NCBI GenBank assembly: GCA_022842865.1 | Contig: JALHOV010000015.1 | Span: forward strand, 1-32,460 | DNA: 32,460 nucleotides | From: Vulcanimicrobiota bacterium | Lineage (GTDB): Bacteria > Vulcanimicrobiota > Xenobia > Xenobiales > JADMJV01 | Direction: 5' to 3' | In this document: positions 2,075 through 11,187 of the stretch, in pieces | Layout: the number at the start of each line of letters is the position of its first letter | Numbering within the stretch: position 1 is the stretch's first letter | Notes under the pieces: generated by a model | What the model was told of the DNA's origin: nothing | What the model saw: the letters and a program-made list of their open reading frames with translations, nothing else | Database searches by the model: none | Made by a program: the position numbers and the translations under genes

Positions 2075-2977
2075 TTGGCTATTATCAGCATGAAGCAGCT
2101 GCTGGAAGCAGGTGTGCACTTCGGCCACCAGACCCGCCGCTGGAACCCCAAGATGTCCCGTTACATCTTCACCGAGCGTAACGGCATCTACATCATCGAC
2201 CTGCAGAAGACGGTCGTCAAACTCAAGGAAGCCTTCAACTTTGTGAAGGCTGTGGCCAAGGGCCAGTTTGACTATGATGAATATAAGATCCGTGACGAAC
2301 AGATCGGTTCGCCTCGCCCTATCCTGTTTGTGGGCACCAAGAAGCAGGCTCAGGACACCATCAAAGAAGATGCCGTCCGCTGCGGTGAGTACTTCGTCAC
2401 CCAGCGTTGGTTGGGCGGCATGCTGACCAACTATAAGACCATCCAGAAGCGCGTTGAGCGCCTCAAGAACCTGGAAGAGATGAAAGCCGTCGGCGTTTTT
2501 GACCGCCTACCCAAAAAGGAAGTCAAGCGCCTCGAAGACGAGCGTATCAAGCTCGAGAAGTTCCTCGGCGGCATCAAGGATATGCCCGCTCTGCCCGGCG
2601 CCATCTACGTGGTGGATCCGCGCAAAGAGTATATCGCCGTGCAGGAAGCTCGCCGTCTGGGCATCCCGGTGGTGGCTATTGTGGACACCAACTGCGATCC
2701 GGACGAAATTGACTTCCCGATCCCGGGCAATGACGACGCCATCCGCGCCGTCCGCCTGATCACCGGCAAGATTGCCGATGCCATCATCGAGGCCAAAGCC
2801 GAGATCGAGGCCAGTCTGCCCGGGATGGACCAGTCCGGTGACGGCGAAGATGGCGGAGCCAATGCCGATAGCTACTTCGCTCCCACCGTCGAGACCGAAA
2901 CCGTGGTTTACACCACCGATGAGGGTGAAACCGAAGAAGTCCGCGTGGGCGTGTGGCGCGCCGACGCCGCCCAATAA
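2075..2977 (+). CDS. rpsB: 30S ribosomal protein S2
   Basis: Small-subunit protein that binds late in 30S assembly near the platform and helps dock S1. The start is a TTG at 2075, 8 bases after a GGAGG at 2062-2066. This gives the normal S2 beginning (M)[19 protein letters not shown]; an open frame running back to 1970 would add 35 unrelated residues across the promoter. Core S2 blocks follow: [68 protein letters not shown]. Two oddities: an insertion of about 17 residues (around 58-76) just before the ILFVGTKK strand, and an acidic C-terminal tail of about 45 residues. Total 300 residues, against about 240 in E. coli. Followed by tsf, the usual partner. Confidence 0.97.
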
Positions 2978-5254: not shown

Positions 5255-5831
5255 TTTAATCCAAATCTACACGGTAGCCGGCAGCGCCGCTCAGCGCCAA
5301 AGCCTGGAGCGATTTCTGGACAGCACGCCGGGAATACGTAATTTGGGCAGCGGTAACCTGAGTTCCAACCCGCCTCTGCATGCCGACATCATTCTGACCG
5401 AACTGCTGGCGGGCGAAGTGCCCCAGCAATCGCTGCAGACCCCTCCCTTTTGGGTGGCTCTGCTGGATGAGGCGCGCAGCCTGTGGGTGGAACAGAACTG
5501 GGGACGCGGCCTGCGTGCTATCTTGCCTCGCCAGACTGGCGAATCCGAGCTGGAAGCGGCCCTCACGGCCGTTTCGCACGGTCTGGTGCTCACCCACCCA
5601 GACTTCCTGGCGCCTACCGCTCCGGCCACCGCCTCACCCCTGTCGGCCCGCGAACAAGAGGTGCTCGCATTCCTGGCCCTGGGCCGATCCAACAAAGAAA
5701 TTGCCGCCCAGATGACCATCTCCGAGCACACCGTCAAATTCCACCTGGCCTCCATCTTTCAGAAGCTGGAAGCCTCGAGTCGCAGCGAAGCCGTCGCCCA
5801 AGGATTGCGCCGAGGACTGGTGCGCGTCTAA
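5238..5831 (+). CDS. LuxR/NarL-type regulator with degenerate receiver domain
   Basis: DNA-binding protein of 197 residues. The C-terminal GerE helix-turn-helix is textbook: LSAREQEVLAFLALGRSNKE, then IAAQMTISEHTVKFHLASI. The N-terminal 125 residues follow the NarL receiver pattern in secondary structure but lack its chemistry. The acidic pair after strand 1 is missing (IQIYTVAGSAAQRQ), the phospho-acceptor position reads ADIILTEL with Glu where DVVLLDL has Asp, and the late Lys is not conserved (RAILPRQ). It is probably phosphorylation-independent. The ATG at 5238 has a GGGAG touching it; the TTG at 5247 has that same GGGAG 9 bases upstream and may be the real start. Either start lies inside the protease gene, which ends at 5254. 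Confidence 0.85.
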   Translation: MKRLNNLIQIYTVAGSAAQRQSLERFLDSTPGIRNLGSGNLSSNPPLHADIILTELLAGEVPQQSLQTPPFWVALLDEARSLWVEQNWGRGLRAILPRQTGESELEAALTAVSHGLVLTHPDFLAPTAPATASPLSAREQEVLAFLALGRSNKEIAAQMTISEHTVKFHLASIFQKLEASSRSEAVAQGLRRGLVRV

Positions 5832-5841
5832 AGCAAACACC

Positions 5842-6075
5842 TTAGTGCGCTAATTTGCGCCAGAACTCCACGTAAGCTTCCAGCGGCGGCCGCAAGGACG
5901 GCTCGTTCCACGCCCAATTGACGGGGGCGTAGAGCTTCAACACCCAGGGCTGCGGCTGGGCATGACTTTTCTCGTAATAGAACGCCACAGGCCCCACGCT
6001 GAGCACATACAACATCGGCGCAGCCAACGCCATCAAGGCCGTCAGCACCACAGAGTTTTTGGCCGGCTTCTCCAT
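5842..6075 (-). CDS. Small single-pass membrane protein, unknown
   Basis: The 77-residue product starts at an ATG. It has a hydrophobic segment SVVLTALMALAAPMLYVLSV (about 8-27), then a short polar C-terminal part rich in aromatics (FYYEKS, VLKLYAPVNWAWNEP, AYVEFWRKL). The arrangement resembles small uncharacterised proteins with one N-terminal helix and a Tyr-x-Pro...Trp tail that occur scattered across bacteria; no function is known to me. A weak AGG lies about 4 bases upstream. It is convergent with the LuxR-type gene, 10 bases apart, and lies downstream of the CHAP-like gene. Confidence 0.6.
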   Translation of the reverse strand: MEKPAKNSVVLTALMALAAPMLYVLSVGPVAFYYEKSHAQPQPWVLKLYAPVNWAWNEPSLRPPLEAYVEFWRKLAH

Positions 6076-6118
6076 AACCTCATCATACCCGATCCCAAGC
6101 TCGGCTTTCCGGAAAAGT

Positions 6119-6778
6119 CTATTTCGGTTCGGGGCGGTAAGCCTGAATCGTTCCCTCTGTCTTTTGAGTCGTGGTAGTATTGCCGTCCTCGGTCGTTCCG
6201 TTGCCCATGTGCAAAACTCGTTGGGTCACTTTGCTCCCGGGAGGAGCATTCTGCTCCAGCACCGTGATATTGCCCTGACCATCATTGGCTACCACCACAG
6301 CGGTGTGGTGAGGGCGAGAGGCTGTTTCGGTGCGAGTTCTGGTTTCCGTATCTGTCTCTGTCTTCTGGGTTGTCTCGTTCGAGTAGTCACGGAACTGCAG
6401 TACGTCGCCCGGCTTGGACTCGTTCAGTTCGACCGGTTTGCCCCATTGATAGTCGCCCTCAGGGGTTACCTGACCGTAGTCGCTGGCGGTTTTCATTCCG
6501 TTCTTCTTGAGAGCCTCGTCGGCCAGGTCAAAGCACTCACCGCGGCCCACCTTTTTGCCCGTTTTGCTCTTGGCATAGTCAAGAACATCTTGACCGGTCT
6601 TGGGAGCGGCGGCGCCACCACTGGTGGGCACGGCGGCGGGATTGGTGGAGGCGCCCAGCGTGCGGTTTGCCGCCTGGCTGGCGAACTGAGCCGGCGTAGC
6701 GCCCGGAGAGGGGGTGGGACGGCCTGCCTGTCCGACCGACTGGACCGGGGCGGTAGCGACACTCGTTCCAATAGCCAT
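6119..6778 (-). CDS. CHAP-like cysteine peptidase/amidase domain protein
   Basis: The 219-residue protein has a low-complexity Ala/Pro/Gly/Thr N-terminus (1-60), then a papain-fold-like domain. DVLDYAKSKTGKKVGRGECF carries the likely nucleophile Cys82, KPGDVLQFRDY gives the central strand, and the HHTAVVV motif (His157/158) with EQN at 175-177 supplies the probable His and Asn/Gln. This Cys-His order is that of CHAP/NlpC-type hydrolases, which mostly cut peptidoglycan. Between strand and His is a Thr/Glu-rich insert (136-154). No signal peptide is visible, so export or the target is unclear. Start supported by GAGGAG 9 bases upstream. The function is inferred from motifs only. Confidence 0.65.
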   Translation of the reverse strand: MAIGTSVATAPVQSVGQAGRPTPSPGATPAQFASQAANRTLGASTNPAAVPTSGGAAAPKTGQDVLDYAKSKTGKKVGRGECFDLADEALKKNGMKTASDYGQVTPEGDYQWGKPVELNESKPGDVLQFRDYSNETTQKTETDTETRTRTETASRPHHTAVVVANDGQGNITVLEQNAPPGSKVTQRVLHMGNGTTEDGNTTTTQKTEGTIQAYRPEPK

Positions 6779-6877
6779 CTTCTTGAGCTCCTCGCGTTGA
6801 TTCTGAAGTCAGACTATCCGCAGCCGATTATTCCGACCTTACCAGACCCCGCGCATTATGAACTCCAGGTAAACATC

Positions 6878-8245
6878 CTAGCCAACCATTTGCCTCGCAA
6901 AGCGGTTGTGGTCCCGCACGACCGGCGCCATATCTACCGTGGCCAGACGACCCTGGTCCACCACCACCCGCCCATGGACTACCGTATACCAGGCCCGGGA
7001 CGGCGCGCAAAACAGCGTCGCCGCCACCGGGTCATGCAGCCCCCCGGCATACTCCAGCGAATCCAGGCGCAGACTGAAGAAATCACCGCACATCCCCACC
7101 GCCAGCGCGCCAACGTCCGCCCGCCCCAGCACGGCGGCCCCGCCCAGGGTTCCGATCTCCAGCGCCTGACGTGCAGTCATCCACTCCGAGCGTTCCAAAG
7201 GCCGCTCCAACAGTCCCAGTCGCAGCCGGGCCAACAGCATGGCCTGACGCACCTCGCCCAGCAAGTGGCAGCCATCGTTACTGGCCGACCCATCCACTCC
7301 GATGCCCACCTTCACGCCCGCATCATAATAGTTGCGCACTGGCGCAATGCCGGAAGCCAGCCGCATATTGGAGCATGGACAGTGTGCCACCCCGCAGCCC
7401 CAGCCGGCGAAGCGCGCGATCTCGCTATCGTTGATGTGAATTGCGTGAGCAAACCAAACGTCCGGACCCACCCAGTCCAGCGACTCCATGTAGTCGACCG
7501 GGCGCATCCCCCAGCGCTCCAGCGTATACCGTTCTTCATCCAGAGTTTCCCCCAGATGCGTATGCAAGTGCACCCCGTGGCGCCGGGCCAATGCGGCCGA
7601 CTCGGTCATCAATCGCGAAGTCACTGAAAAGGGCGAACACGGCGCCAGCACAATTTGGGTCATGGAGCCCGGCGCGGCATCGTGGTAGCGTTCGATCACC
7701 CGTTCGCAATCGGTAAGAATGGCTTCCTCGTCCTCCACGCACTCATCCGGCGGCAAGCCACCCAGCGACTGACCCAAAGACATGCTGCCGCGCGAAGCCT
7801 GAAAGCGCATCCCGATCTCTCGAGCCGCCTCGATCTGGTCGTCCACCCGACTGCCGTTCTTAAAAATATAGGTGTGGTCAAAGGCGGTGGTGCACCCCGA
7901 TAAAGCCAGCTCGGCCAGGGCCACCAGCGTGCAGGTTCGCGATGCCTCCGGATGGCGGCGCGCCCAGATCCGGTAGTGCACCTTGAGCCATTCAAAAAGG
8001 TTCAGTTCCTGGGCCTCCGGCAGCGCCCGCGTCAAAGTCTGGTCGAAATGGTGATGAGTGTTGATCAGGCCCGGCAGTACCACCTGACCGCTCAAGTCCA
8101 GAACCTGGTCTGCGGAACCCGCTAACTCCAAACCGACCTGCTCGATGATGCCGTCTCGCACAAACAGACCCCCGCCCGGGATCTCTCGTCGCTGCCCGTC
8201 CATGGTCACCAGAATTTCAGCATTCCGGGCCAGTAACGTGCTCAG
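6878..8245 (-). CDS. 8-oxoguanine deaminase (amidohydrolase family), probable CTG start
   Basis: Converts 8-oxoguanine to urate with release of ammonia, a guanine-repair/salvage step in the cytosol. TIM-barrel amidohydrolase with metal site HHH in LPGLINTHHHFDQTL, the family signature RGSMSLGQSLGGLPPDE, LAPCSPFSVTSRL, HLHTHLGETLDEE, the AHCPCSN turn, and the catalytic Asp in GIGVDGSASND. These match the 8-oxoguanine deaminase/AtzB-like subgroup closely. The first ATG/GTG/TTG in frame is the GTG at 8209, which would cut off the first beta strand. The frame upstream reads STLLARNAEILVTMDGQRRE, the usual family start. A CTG at 8245, with AGGG 8 bases upstream and overlapping the previous stop as CTGA, is the best start and gives 455 residues. 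Last gene of the peptide-cassette operon by position. Confidence 0.88.
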   Translation of the reverse strand: MSTLLARNAEILVTMDGQRREIPGGGLFVRDGIIEQVGLELAGSADQVLDLSGQVVLPGLINTHHHFDQTLTRALPEAQELNLFEWLKVHYRIWARRHPEASRTCTLVALAELALSGCTTAFDHTYIFKNGSRVDDQIEAAREIGMRFQASRGSMSLGQSLGGLPPDECVEDEEAILTDCERVIERYHDAAPGSMTQIVLAPCSPFSVTSRLMTESAALARRHGVHLHTHLGETLDEERYTLERWGMRPVDYMESLDWVGPDVWFAHAIHINDSEIARFAGWGCGVAHCPCSNMRLASGIAPVRNYYDAGVKVGIGVDGSASNDGCHLLGEVRQAMLLARLRLGLLERPLERSEWMTARQALEIGTLGGAAVLGRADVGALAVGMCGDFFSLRLDSLEYAGGLHDPVAATLFCAPSRAWYTVVHGRVVVDQGRLATVDMAPVVRDHNRFARQMVG

Positions 8246-9372
8246 ACGTGAGCCCTGCGCAGCAAGCCCCGGCCATAAGCCTCGGCCCGCGCGAAAATCG
8301 CCTTATAAACCGAACAATACGGATCCTTGGCCAGCATCGTCCCCAGCGCGCTGTAAGTGCGTACCGGACAACCTCCGTGGCAAATCGACAGGTATTTGCA
8401 TTCCAAACAGTCCTCATTTTCGACCAGATGCTTGGGCCGCTCCACAAACTGCCGGCGGGCGGGACTCGAGCGCAGCATTTCGCTTAAGTTCTGTTCCCGG
8501 AACACATTGCCAAAATAGGTCTCCGGATAACTGGTTACCCAGCAATCGCACTGAGCTACGGTCCCTTTCGAGTCGATGGAGATAAACTGGCTGGAGCAAT
8601 TCTCTTTCCAAATGCAAGGCAGCCGGGCCGGCTGACCACGGAAGTGCTTGACCAGCTCATCAAACGGGCCCAGCGCCACCCCGTCGGCATAGCCTCGCTC
8701 CATCCAGCGGTCCATCAGGCCTACCAGGAATTCCGCCAGAGCGCTTTTGTCCAGGTCAAACTCCTGCTCCACCGCCTTGGCCGGACCGCCCGGAAAGGGC
8801 GTGTTGACCTGAAAGCTCGTCAGCCCCAGCTCCTCCACGTAGTAATCATAAAAGGCGGCTGCCCCGGCATCCAGACTGCCCTGGTGTAGCACCGCGATCA
8901 CGCCCACCTGGAGACCGGCTGCCTGAGCCTCCCGCAAACGCTGGGTCCACACGGCCGAATATCCGGCCGCTCCGCCTTTGAAGAGATGACGGTGCTGATT
9001 GGGAAAGTCCATGGAGGTCCCCAACGAGCCATTGAACATCTCGTAGATCAGCTCATTCCAGGTCGCTGAATAGCTGATTAGATTGGTCTGCAGATAGTGC
9101 ACAAAGCGCAGACCGCGCGCGGCCGCCGCCTCATCCATGACGCGTCCGGCCTCGCGAAACCAGGCCGGGCCCATGATCATCGCTTCCCCGCCCTGCCAGT
9201 AAATCTCGCACTCCTCCATCCCCTCATGCTCGAGATGGTCGAGCAATTGGCGCGTCAGTTCAGGGACTCGCGGTAGGGAAAGCCGGTGCTTCTCCTTGTG
9301 CTCGAAACAGTAAGTACAGGCAACATTGCACTCGGCCGTGGGCAGAAGAATGACGCTAAAGACTCGGCTCAC
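8242..9372 (-). CDS. Radical SAM/SPASM peptide maturase, GrrM-like
   Basis: The 376-residue enzyme probably crosslinks the adjacent W-x-N precursor. Radical SAM cluster Cys15, Cys19, Cys22 in CNVACTYC; GGE SAM motif in IYWQGGEAM (about 57-65). The C-terminal SPASM domain binds auxiliary Fe-S clusters: Cys259 then G270 and Cys275, Cys322-x2-Cys325-x5-Cys331-x3-Cys335, and Cys353. CIWKENCSSQFISIDSKG at 253-270 resembles the same region in GrrM/FxsB-type three-residue cyclophane synthases. The assignment to that class rests on this plus the neighbouring precursor. GTG start with AGGAG 7 bases upstream; it overlaps the partner gene by 17 bases and the deaminase start by 4. Confidence 0.88.
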   Translation of the reverse strand: MSRVFSVILLPTAECNVACTYCFEHKEKHRLSLPRVPELTRQLLDHLEHEGMEECEIYWQGGEAMIMGPAWFREAGRVMDEAAAARGLRFVHYLQTNLISYSATWNELIYEMFNGSLGTSMDFPNQHRHLFKGGAAGYSAVWTQRLREAQAAGLQVGVIAVLHQGSLDAGAAAFYDYYVEELGLTSFQVNTPFPGGPAKAVEQEFDLDKSALAEFLVGLMDRWMERGYADGVALGPFDELVKHFRGQPARLPCIWKENCSSQFISIDSKGTVAQCDCWVTSYPETYFGNVFREQNLSEMLRSSPARRQFVERPKHLVENEDCLECKYLSICHGGCPVRTYSALGTMLAKDPYCSVYKAIFARAEAYGRGLLRRAHV

Positions 9373-9982
9373 GGGTCATCTCCTCGGCCACCGACTCCAG
9401 GGCTCCAAAAAGCCCGACCACGCCGGTGCAGTCGTAATCGTGCAAGGGATACTTGAAATAGCTGGCGCACACGCTGCGGTAGCGACAAGCCGAGCATTCT
9501 TCCCGAATCGCCCGCGCCGGCTCCTCCAGCATGTCCCAGAGCGTGCCCCGGTCGAAGCCGGCGAACGTGGCCAACAGCGAATGAAAGAACTCAACCGGCG
9601 CTTCCACCCGCGTGTCGTGCAGATAGAACTCGAGCGCCTCGTGTAGATGTGCCAACGCAGCCTCGTCGGGTTGCCCCGGCAGCAGACGCACCGGCAGCTG
9701 CAGAGAAGTGGCCATGCGCAGAGCTTTCAGGGCACCCGGCACCAGCAGTAGCGTCACTCCGACCGGCCGCACCAGACGAACGTCGGCCAGCCGATAAAGC
9801 GCCGAGAAGTCACGATCGGGCCGGTCCACCAGCACGTCGAGCGGCATTTGTCCGGTTCCTTGCGCGGCGCGTGCCCACACCTCAGGGTCTCCGAGCAGAT
9901 CTTCCACACGCAGGCCCTCCGCATCTGAATCCAGCCAGCGCTCGAACTCAGAACGCGAACGGACCGTTACAAAGCTCGTCAG
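9356..9982 (-). CDS. RiPP cassette partner with SPASM-like Cys cluster but no radical SAM motif
   Basis: The product of about 208 residues lies between precursor and maturase. The C-terminus holds Cys163-x2-Cys166-x5-Cys172-x12-Cys185 (CSACRYRSVCASYFKYP, then DYDC), which looks like a SPASM/auxiliary-cluster tail. The middle (VTLLLVPGALKALRMA, LPVRLLPGQPDEAA) resembles late strands of a radical SAM barrel, but there is no CxxxCxxC. It may be a degenerate maturase half that recognises the leader or partners the enzyme. The frame is open up to a TAG at 9998. The start is either a CTG at 9982, overlapping the precursor stop as CTGA, or the GTG at 9907. The extra 25 residues (TSFVTVRSRSEFERWL) look coding, so the longer form is given. 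Confidence 0.7.
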   Translation of the reverse strand: MTSFVTVRSRSEFERWLDSDAEGLRVEDLLGDPEVWARAAQGTGQMPLDVLVDRPDRDFSALYRLADVRLVRPVGVTLLLVPGALKALRMATSLQLPVRLLPGQPDEAALAHLHEALEFYLHDTRVEAPVEFFHSLLATFAGFDRGTLWDMLEEPARAIREECSACRYRSVCASYFKYPLHDYDCTGVVGLFGALESVAEEMTREPSL

Positions 9983-10257
9983 CGCCGGTTGATCCAGCTA
10001 CCGCCGCCGGAGCGCCGATTGATCCAGCCTCCGCCCCCGCCGCCAGCGCCGTTCAGCCAGCCTCCGCCGCCACCCACAGCATTGATCCAACCGCCGCCAC
10101 CGTTGATCCAGCCGCCGCGCCGGTTGATCCAGCCACCCGCCTCGGCTTCCGGAGAATTGCTGATGCCGCCCAACAGGGCCGCCAAAATGGCTGCGCCCGA
10201 CCACTTGCCCGTGCTTTGCAGAAAATCACGGCGGCTTTGCAGGTTGTCTTCGCTCAC
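9979..10257 (-). CDS. RiPP precursor, Gly-rich with six W-[IL]-N motifs and Tat-like leader (GrrA-like)
   Basis: The 92-residue peptide has a leader with a twin-arginine motif, SRRDFLQ at 8-14, then a hydrophobic stretch (SGAAILAALLGGI) and an AEA signal-peptidase site at 38-40. The core begins at once with GGWINRR. Motifs: W43-I-N45, W50-I-N52, W57-I-N59, W67-L-N69, W78-I-N80, W88-I-N90, separated by Gly runs and three RR pairs. In the GrrA/OscA type of precursor, a radical SAM enzyme links the aromatic ring to the side chain two residues on, making three-residue cyclophanes. The adjacent maturase supports that reading. GTG start with GGGAG 6 bases upstream, overlapping the upstream TAG by one base. 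Substrate identity and Tat export are inference. Confidence 0.85.
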   Translation of the reverse strand: MSEDNLQSRRDFLQSTGKWSGAAILAALLGGISNSPEAEAGGWINRRGGWINGGGGWINAVGGGGGWLNGAGGGGGGWINRRSGGGSWINRR

Positions 10258-10745
10258 TAGACGCTCCCTTCGCCAACCAGGTTGGAGAAGTGCATGGCGG
10301 CAATCTTCCAGGCACCCCCGACTTTGCTGACGGTCACGGAGAGATTGATGGGAAAGGCGAACGGCTTGCCGCCCTTCTTGCCTTTGATCTCTCCTGAAGC
10401 GAAGAGATATCCCATGTCTGCGCCCAGGTCACCCTGGCGCACATGGTATGTGAAATCTTGCTGCCCCTTATCGAAGCCTTCAAAGAAGTGCTGATAGGCG
10501 GTTTTTATCTGCTCGGAGGTGGTCCAAAACTCGCCGGGTCCGGTTCCCATGACGACGGCCTTCGGCGCCAGCGTTGCCAGCACGCCGGCCAGGTTGTGGT
10601 TGGTCATCGCATCGTCGTGGGCTTTCAGCAAGTCATGAACCTTTTTCAGTTCTGGCTTTTTGTCCTCGGCCTCGGCCGAATGGGTCAGGGCGACTGCTGC
10701 CGATAGCGCAGTCAGTCCAGTCAAAAGTGTAGTTCTACGATTCAT
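10257..10745 (-). CDS. Exported NTF2-like (SnoaL/SgcJ-type) protein, first gene of RiPP cassette
   Basis: The 162-residue protein has an N-terminal signal (MNRRTTLLTGLTALSAAVAL, ending SAEA at 23-26); the RR pair makes Tat export possible. The mature part has the cone-shaped NTF2-like pattern: a helix with DLLKAHDDAMTNHNLAGVLA, the strand VVMGTGPGEF, an EQIKTAYQHFFEGF helix, then strands MGYLFASGEIKGK and AWKIAAMHFSN. Such domains act as small-molecule binding folds or isomerases; no catalytic residue can be assigned. It overlaps the precursor start by one base. ATG start without a good ribosome site; a promoter ends only about 10 bases upstream. Its role in the cassette (binding or processing the peptide outside the membrane) is a guess. 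Confidence 0.82.
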   Translation of the reverse strand: MNRRTTLLTGLTALSAAVALTHSAEAEDKKPELKKVHDLLKAHDDAMTNHNLAGVLATLAPKAVVMGTGPGEFWTTSEQIKTAYQHFFEGFDKGQQDFTYHVRQGDLGADMGYLFASGEIKGKKGGKPFAFPINLSVTVSKVGGAWKIAAMHFSNLVGEGSV

Positions 10746-10754
10746 AGCGCCCAG

Positions 10755-10782
10755 TTTATCTCAATGTGAAGGCGAAAGTCAA
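10755..10782 (-). promoter_or_regulatory. Predicted promoter of the RiPP cassette
   Basis: On the minus strand, TTGACT (10782-10777) and GATAAA (10760-10755) are 16 bases apart. Transcription would begin near 10748, only a few bases before the ATG at 10745, so the mRNA would be nearly leaderless. That fits the lack of a Shine-Dalgarno sequence before the NTF2-like gene. It would let the cassette be expressed apart from the genes upstream. Prediction only. Confidence 0.5.
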
Positions 10783-10794
10783 CTCGATCGTTTA

Positions 10795-11187
10795 CTATCG
10801 AATGGCCACGGTGACCGTATAGTCGAAAGCTTGGCCCTTTTCGTCCGGGCCGACGTCCACATAGAAATCTCCATTGGCGGGCAATTTAAAGGAACAGCTG
10901 GCGTTCTGGCCCGAGCCGCTGGCCAGCTCGCCGTTGTTGTAATCCGACTGCCAGCAATAAACACTACCGGGGGCGCTGCCTTTGAAGGTCACCGTCACCC
11001 GCTGTCCCTTGGTTGCGCCCAGTATGTAGCGGTCGAAGGATTCGTTGGCTTTCGGATCGGGATGCCAGGTGCCCGTGACGGTGCCGGAGCTGGCGCCCTT
11101 CTCAAAACGAATGCGCTGATTGATTTGATTGGCCGAACCGGTCAAAACCAGGCCGATCAACAGCAACGAAACCCAAAGTTTTCTCAT
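10795..11187 (-). CDS. Secreted small beta-sandwich protein, PPC-like domain
   Basis: The 130-residue protein has a signal peptide (MRKLWVSLLLIGLVLTGSA). The mature part follows the bacterial pre-peptidase C-terminal (PPC) pattern: RIRFEKGASSGTVTGTW, DRYILGATKGQRVTVTFKG, Gly/Ser turns, then FKLPANGDFYVDVG and FDYTVTVAI at the end. PPC domains usually sit on secreted proteases as a removable tail; a free-standing one may be a binding or inhibitor-like module. Two Cys (in VYCWQ and ASCSF) could form a disulfide after export. ATG start overlapping the upstream stop as ATGA. Function unknown. Confidence 0.72.
   Translation of the reverse strand: MRKLWVSLLLIGLVLTGSANQINQRIRFEKGASSGTVTGTWHPDPKANESFDRYILGATKGQRVTVTFKGSAPGSVYCWQSDYNNGELASGSGQNASCSFKLPANGDFYVDVGPDEKGQAFDYTVTVAIR

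Follow-up and report, generated by a model that had tools for sequence, protein, structure and literature searches.

A rare gene cassette in two bacterial phyla encodes a W-x-N repeat peptide with a probable twin-arginine leader

RiPP peptides need to be modified before they leave the cell and must then lose their leader, often by means of a dedicated protease and transporter. Tat is a general machinery that prefers folded cargo, and were the leader itself a Tat signal, general machinery would take care of both export and leader removal. The window, by which we mean the whole stretch of 32,460 nucleotides analysed here (contig JALHOV010000015.1 of a Vulcanimicrobiota bacterium), raises the question whether a natural RiPP uses this arrangement. 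A first-pass annotation of its sequence had singled out a small gene for a peptide with a twin-arginine leader and a core of six W-[IL]-N units, and had expected it to be a GrrA/OscA-type substrate. The best explanation for this precursor is a triceptide-like RiPP that is exported by Tat and whose leader also docks the maturase. For the cassette around it, we consider it rather probable that it makes and Tat-exports a cross-linked RiPP with such a leader. The features discussed below are collected in Table 1.

Table 1 Features of the cassette and its surroundings in the window.
Feature	Position	Strand	Description
Precursor gene, 92 aa	9979-10257	minus	ORF, GTG start
Leader, residues 1-40	10138..10257	minus	Resembles a twin-arginine signal; signal peptidase predicted to cut behind Ala40
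Core, residues 41-92, 52 aa	9982..10137	minus	Six W-x-N, Gly-rich repeats
Precursor residues			RR 9-10; SRRDFLQ 8-14; FLQSTGKWS; then hydrophobic stretch; AEA 38-40
SnoaL-like (DUF4440) protein, MNRR N-terminus	10257..10745	minus	Cassette gene 1; stop overlaps precursor start
Companion	9356..9982	minus	Predicted beta-alpha repeat part and SPASM-like Cys tail CX2CX5CX12C
Radical SAM/SPASM enzyme, 376 aa	8242..9372	minus	CX3CX2C and SPASM cysteines; proposed cyclophane-forming maturase
Segment missing from G004	5831..10799	.	Four-gene cassette with deaminase and CHAP-like genes

The precursor behaves as a real gene, since it evolves with a dN/dS of 0.12 relative to the genus-mate G001 and the arginine pair is kept in all 19 aligned precursors (see below). 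A Pfam search with it returned no match at E ≤0.1. The antisense 203-aa ORF at 9649-10260 was taken as mechanical and set aside. The six W-[IL]-N units and the Gly-rich core described earlier are present, with the units at residues 43, 50, 57, 67, 78 and 88; not one of 100,000 shuffles of the precursor's own letters reached six W-[ILV]-N, the maximum being three. W-x-N thereby accounts for all six core tryptophans, an arginine pair directly follows the first and the last two units, and the peptide contains no Cys. In the 19 aligned precursors, which come from 18 cassettes including that of the window and from one decayed copy (L012), Asn stands two residues past Trp at 101 of 124 core tryptophans, while the residue after this Asn varies, although it is often R, and some cores add N-R-W. 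The precursor of locus L007 has 83 residues.

The precursor is the second of four tightly packed genes in the order SnoaL-like protein, precursor, companion and radical SAM/SPASM enzyme, and the companion stop falls inside the start of the radical SAM gene. A candidate maturase gene thus lies in the precursor's own cassette; the companion, the SnoaL-like gene and an invariant G[KR]WS motif in the leader are additional to the first reading of the precursor. The cassette is real, conserved and rare. It occurs in 18 genomes of Eremiobacterota and Verrucomicrobiota out of 23 with a companion match at E ≤0.001. A companion scan of genome contigs gave six loci, one from Eremiobacterota and five from Verrucomicrobiota, the latter including Verrucomicrobium sp. 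BvORR034 and Chthoniobacter flavus. Whole-genome searches, whose counts include the centre and genomes already known and which scored some candidates per genome so that misses are possible, found the companion in 3 of 15 genomes of the window's order; a sample of 148 genomes from its phylum gave 5, namely those three and two diverged. Corresponding counts were 2 of 387 sampled from the phylum of G148 (G148 itself and one weak match), 7 of 213 in the order of G150 (of which three were new and one weak) and 10 of 336 sampled from the order of G148 (of the eight new ones, one has the companion alone). The five companion genomes without the full set are G027 and G049, which are diverged, G818, which has the companion only, and G170 and G720, which are weak matches; the weak companion loci are L028 and L043.

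Several loci are incomplete at their edges. Contig ends cut the radical SAM gene in L009, L056 and L059 and the SnoaL-like gene in L011 and L057, and in L065 the radical SAM gene lies about 1 kb from the companion and is partial in the sequence examined. Genome G152 carries an intact copy (L029) beside the decayed L012, in which the companion is broken and no radical SAM gene was found. In the window's class, L030 and L031 hold a diverged enzyme and companion. No precursor is visible at L031, and at the contig edge of L030 (about 2532-2611, minus strand) we observed a precursor end reading ..GWVNSHNGNYSSVRF; the L030 enzyme is 58% identical to that of the window. A companion-like gene was also seen at 2821-3645 of L066, where precursor, SnoaL-like and radical SAM genes were not detected in 5.3 kb.

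The putative maturase carries the radical SAM motif CNVACTYC and exceeds the cut-offs of two SPASM models (TIGR04085, 54.4 versus 27 bits; PF13186, 27.3 versus 21.5), whereas it stays below that of PF04055 (20.5 versus 29.5). Its CX3CX2C and SPASM cysteines are invariant in 9 aligned enzymes. The top NCBIfam profiles were DynA (NF041298, 145.2 bits versus a cut-off of 450), sulfatase maturase (143 versus 349) and DarW (122, also below cut-off), with DarE at 99 versus 650 and GrrM/OscB (TIGR04261) at 73.8 versus 310. These scores do not choose between known crosslink types. The nearest solved structures by sequence are those of the anaerobic sulfatase maturase anSME (4k36, E 3.7e-25; 4k37, E 5.1e-25). 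The enzymes of the window and of Verrucomicrobium share 81%, and synonymous change in the gene against G001 is saturated; no direction of transfer emerges from the enzyme tree. A plasmid search with the enzyme returned 188 records, all below 60% identity, and none of the 40 matches listed was named a cyclophane enzyme. Pseudomonas plasmid records carried four places each that were about 28% identical to the enzyme and were mostly named only radical SAM or SPASM protein.

W-x-N crosslinking is most likely the chemistry of the core, given the Asn two residues past Trp at most core tryptophans and the analogy with OscB and XncB. According to the part of PMC11002830 available, OscB bonds Trp C7 to C-beta of an Asn or Asp two residues on, and XncB bonds Trp C6 to C-beta of Arg or Asn. 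A different crosslink is possible because the enzyme scores higher with DynA and sulfatase maturase than with GrrM, all of them below cut-off. That the bond is indeed another one, for instance DynA/DarE-like or from W to the Arg of W-x-N-R, so that the product would be no three-residue cyclophane, is in our view fairly unlikely. The profile order, with DynA, sulfatase maturase and DarW all ahead of GrrM, and the frequent Arg after W-x-N and the added N-R-W of some cores speak for it; the profile order is weak evidence since all these families stay below cut-off, and it is the Asn, not the residue behind it, that is kept. The family could also be a divergent GrrA/OscA precursor with its GrrM/OscB enzyme, as the same kind of core and matches of TIGR04260 to 14 of the 19 precursors at E ≤10 would suggest. 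The search against TIGR04260 proposed in the first-pass annotation does not bear out this membership: the window precursor scored 8.6 bits and the best of the 19, L010 (also best by E-value), 21.2 bits, against a cut-off of 31, and the five matches with known ranges cover profile positions 64-118 of 118, which is the repeat part. With the enzyme likewise far below the TIGR04261 cut-off, the leader different and extra genes present, we rejected the assignment to GrrA/OscA and regard simple divergence from it as improbable. The least probable reading, and a highly improbable one, is that there is no RiPP at all but a structural peptide, secreted and rich in Gly and Trp, whose neighbour is there by chance. 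The low-complexity tail and the five companion genomes without the full set in view would fit such a peptide; precursor, companion and radical SAM gene nevertheless stand together in 18 genomes of two phyla.

In the leader, the residues invariant in the 19 aligned precursors (window numbering) are R9, R10, L13, G17, W19, S20, A22 and A26; position 18 carries K 17 times and R twice, and position 12 F 17 times and C twice. The twin arginine seen earlier in SRRDFLQ is accompanied in 19/19 precursors by L at +4 and by G-[KR]-W-S; an arginine pair lacking from orthologues, which would have counted against a Tat leader, was not encountered in any of the 19. An [ASTV]-x-[AG] end lies 1-3 residues ahead of the first W-x-N in all 19 leaders, so that by this loose rule every precursor runs from twin arginine over a hydrophobic stretch to a cleavage-type end; 7 of 9 precursors, including that of the window, pass a stricter A-x-A rule. 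The AEA noted at the core boundary is compatible with signal peptidase, but such an end is only suggestive because shuffled leaders still give about 10.2/19, and an AxA-type boundary is weak on its own because the leaders are Ala-rich. A rule-based Tat-like scan matched the precursor gene among 3 of 184 window ORFs, which together with the 7 of 9 precursors matched makes it only mildly specific. Basic residues (K or R) are found late in 8 of the 19 leaders, the window leader not being one of these. Hydrophobicity of the best 12-mer was 2.20 for the window (mean of the 19, 1.94; range 1.41-2.44), in comparison to 2.80, 2.28 and 2.09 for three N-termini without RR in the window, 2.48 and 2.26 for two in L007, and a mean of 2.09 for eight RR-bearing SnoaL-like signals. 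As Tat evidence this is weakly helpful, with no clean separation from the RR-less N-termini.

The SnoaL-like protein serves as an internal control for the leader. Its RR at residues 3-4 is found in 17/17 proteins with a visible N-terminus, the decayed L012 included, and no KWS-like motif follows it in any of them. As RR is common to both proteins and G[KR]WS has no counterpart in the SnoaL-like protein, the precursor leader is best read as being under two constraints, the arginine pair reflecting Tat targeting and G[KR]WS maturase docking. The SnoaL-like gene has a dN/dS of 0.09 (window versus G001), and the one promoter-like site found before it matches the chance expectation of 1.1.

The curated Tat profiles stayed below their cut-offs, TIGR01409 by a small margin. 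TIGR01409 gave 14.2 bits for the window against a cut-off of 16.7 and at best 16.6 bits among the 19 precursors (L007; 7 of 19 matched at E ≤10), and PF10518 (TAT_signal) gave 9-11 bits, below its cut-off, in 3 of 9 precursors. TatC is encoded, over cut-off, in 8 of 8 genomes, that of the window among them. The Tat leader of the first-pass annotation thus stands with respect to the conserved arginine pair, the encoded TatC and the compatible cleavage end, whereas the curated profile did not recognise it. One may instead propose that RR...GKWS is purely a docking motif for the maturase and that the leader acts as a Sec signal or an uncleaved membrane anchor, with Tat playing no part. G[KR]WS exceeds the needs of a Tat signal, which together with the TIGR01409 score, the hydrophobicity overlapping that of RR-less neighbours and the Sec signals of MNIO-modified RiPPs (PMC12452194, as far as its available part describes) would favour this proposal. 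It is at odds with the invariance of RR in all 19 precursors, with the late basic residues in 8 of 19 leaders and with the SnoaL-like partner, which retains RR 17/17 and has no known reason to bind the maturase; we judge it fairly unlikely. From the sequence we infer Tat targeting and the cut site, and conservation makes the Tat reading, like that of the core, well supported.

To ask which other genes accompany the cassette, ORFs of at least 90 aa were clustered in 18 loci of 3.5 to 15.5 kb each (17 cassettes and L012, with L011 left out), a range that covers near neighbours; the SnoaL-like piece of L057 and the precursor of L007 are present yet fall under this length cut. Families in at least 4 of the 18 loci were the four cassette genes and their shadow ORFs, judged by the position of the cluster representative. 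A histidine kinase and a LuxR-type gene occurred in three loci; other families were shared by two, for the most part the window and G001. No protease or transporter family recurred in at least 4 of these 18 loci, which fits a route in which general machinery exports the peptide and removes its leader, and also fits the earlier expectation that no dedicated protease is needed.

The first ATG, GTG or TTG of the companion frame comes only at 9907, yet homology extends farther upstream; a possible start is a CTG overlapping the precursor TGA (CTGA in the window and G001), which would be a non-standard coupled start. The companion has a dN/dS of 0.14 (window versus G001), gave two weak NCBIfam matches and no Pfam match at E ≤0.1, and the window's companion frame lacks CX3CX2C. 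Profile comparison matches the 100 columns at its C-terminus to the SPASM region of the neighbouring enzyme (probability 78, E 1.7e-5). A structure model of the Verrucomicrobium companion (mean pLDDT 67) predicts five beta-alpha units followed by the tail. A fold search with this model gave nothing at E ≤0.001, the best matches being to transaldolase (E 4e-3, TM about 0.3-0.4), with no radical SAM structure among the 50 matches listed; a search of solved structures with the companion gave one chance-level match. The companion of G773 (L065, 2760-3963) has long His-Glu and Gln-Glu repeats.

On the preferred reading, that of a Tat-exported triceptide-like RiPP, the radical SAM/SPASM enzyme and the companion would bind the leader, probably via G-[KR]-W-S just past the twin arginine, and the enzyme would bond the Trp ring of W-x-N units to their Asn, up to six times and with a loss of 2 Da each. 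The rigid modified peptide would then leave through the general Tat translocase and signal peptidase would cleave after AEA, releasing into the periplasm a Gly-rich peptide of 52 residues that carries as many as six small rings. There the SnoaL-like protein, with an RR signal of its own, may bind or protect the peptide. The crosslink type and the roles of companion and SnoaL-like protein we infer by analogy. A secretion signal that doubles as leader, here as in MNIO RiPPs, implies that premature export must be avoided. Tat redox enzymes have proofreading chaperones such as TorD. It may be speculated, as a tentative possibility, that the companion, as a degenerate relative of radical SAM/SPASM enzymes, binds the leader at G[KR]WS and masks it until the rings are complete and then hands the peptide to Tat. 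The companion would then be a proofreading chaperone for a RiPP, and a natural RiPP would be secreted and freed of its leader entirely by Tat and signal peptidase. More generally, if the proposed route holds, a bacterium could finish a cross-linked peptide before export without a dedicated transporter, and the family would be a natural case of a Tat-exported RiPP with the companion as candidate gatekeeper.

Known systems share some elements with this cassette. GrrA/OscA with GrrM/OscB triceptides have the Gly-rich C-terminal aromatic-x-Asn repeats and a radical SAM/SPASM enzyme nearby, but the window family has the twin-arginine leader with G[KR]WS and, in the loci found, the companion and SnoaL-like genes alongside. 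DynA, DarE and anSME are near the window enzyme by profile or, for anSME, by solved structure; scores below cut-off, a different substrate and a different gene set separate them from it. Bufferins and other Sec-signal RiPPs modified by MNIO enzymes also use a secretion signal as leader, whereas, as described in the available part of PMC12452194, their signal is Sec and their precursors contain Cys, the window precursor lacking Cys and its maturase being a radical SAM enzyme. Carriage of a modified RiPP by Tat has a precedent in nisin displayed through engineered Tat (PMC11048544, available in part, citing Hetrick et al.); that fusion is man-made, while the present leader is a natural one and appears to act as the Tat signal by itself. 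Similarly, PMC5686179, in its available part, speculates that Tat could allow lanthipeptides longer contact with their enzymes and considers lanthipeptide display. In the open literature, none of the papers listed for RiPP-related topics in some of the searches held the term 'twin-arginine', and in another the one listed paper with 'Tat pathway' was PMC11048544; the family may have been mentioned before. We found no paper there on SnoaL with radical SAM and a RiPP. The available parts of PMC8406302 and PMC9927498 hold nothing bearing on Tat with RiPPs, the term 'signal peptidase' is absent from that of the leader-protease review PMC10885120, and 'twin-arginine' and 'Verrucomicrob' are absent from that of PMC9062424. 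The cassette adds a RiPP-like gene set in two phyla.

Within the genus, whole-genome search located the cassette in G000, G001 and G003 but in neither G002 nor G004. G004 has 158 bp (L067, 2896-3055) where the window has about 5 kb, between flanks of 83-89% DNA identity, and the segment 5831-10799 has therefore been gained or lost within the genus. In G003 the cassette and the homologous flank lie on separate contigs, and in G002 the flank runs to the contig end. Downstream of the cassette in the window follow a gene for an 8-oxoguanine deaminase (over cut-off) and one for a CHAP-like protein (CHAP, 25.7 versus 26), and G001 carries the cassette at the same place without these two genes. The CHAP-like protein (6119-6778) exceeds the cut-off of PF25459, the AIM3/BBC1 cysteine proteinase-fold domain, with 58.7 bits.
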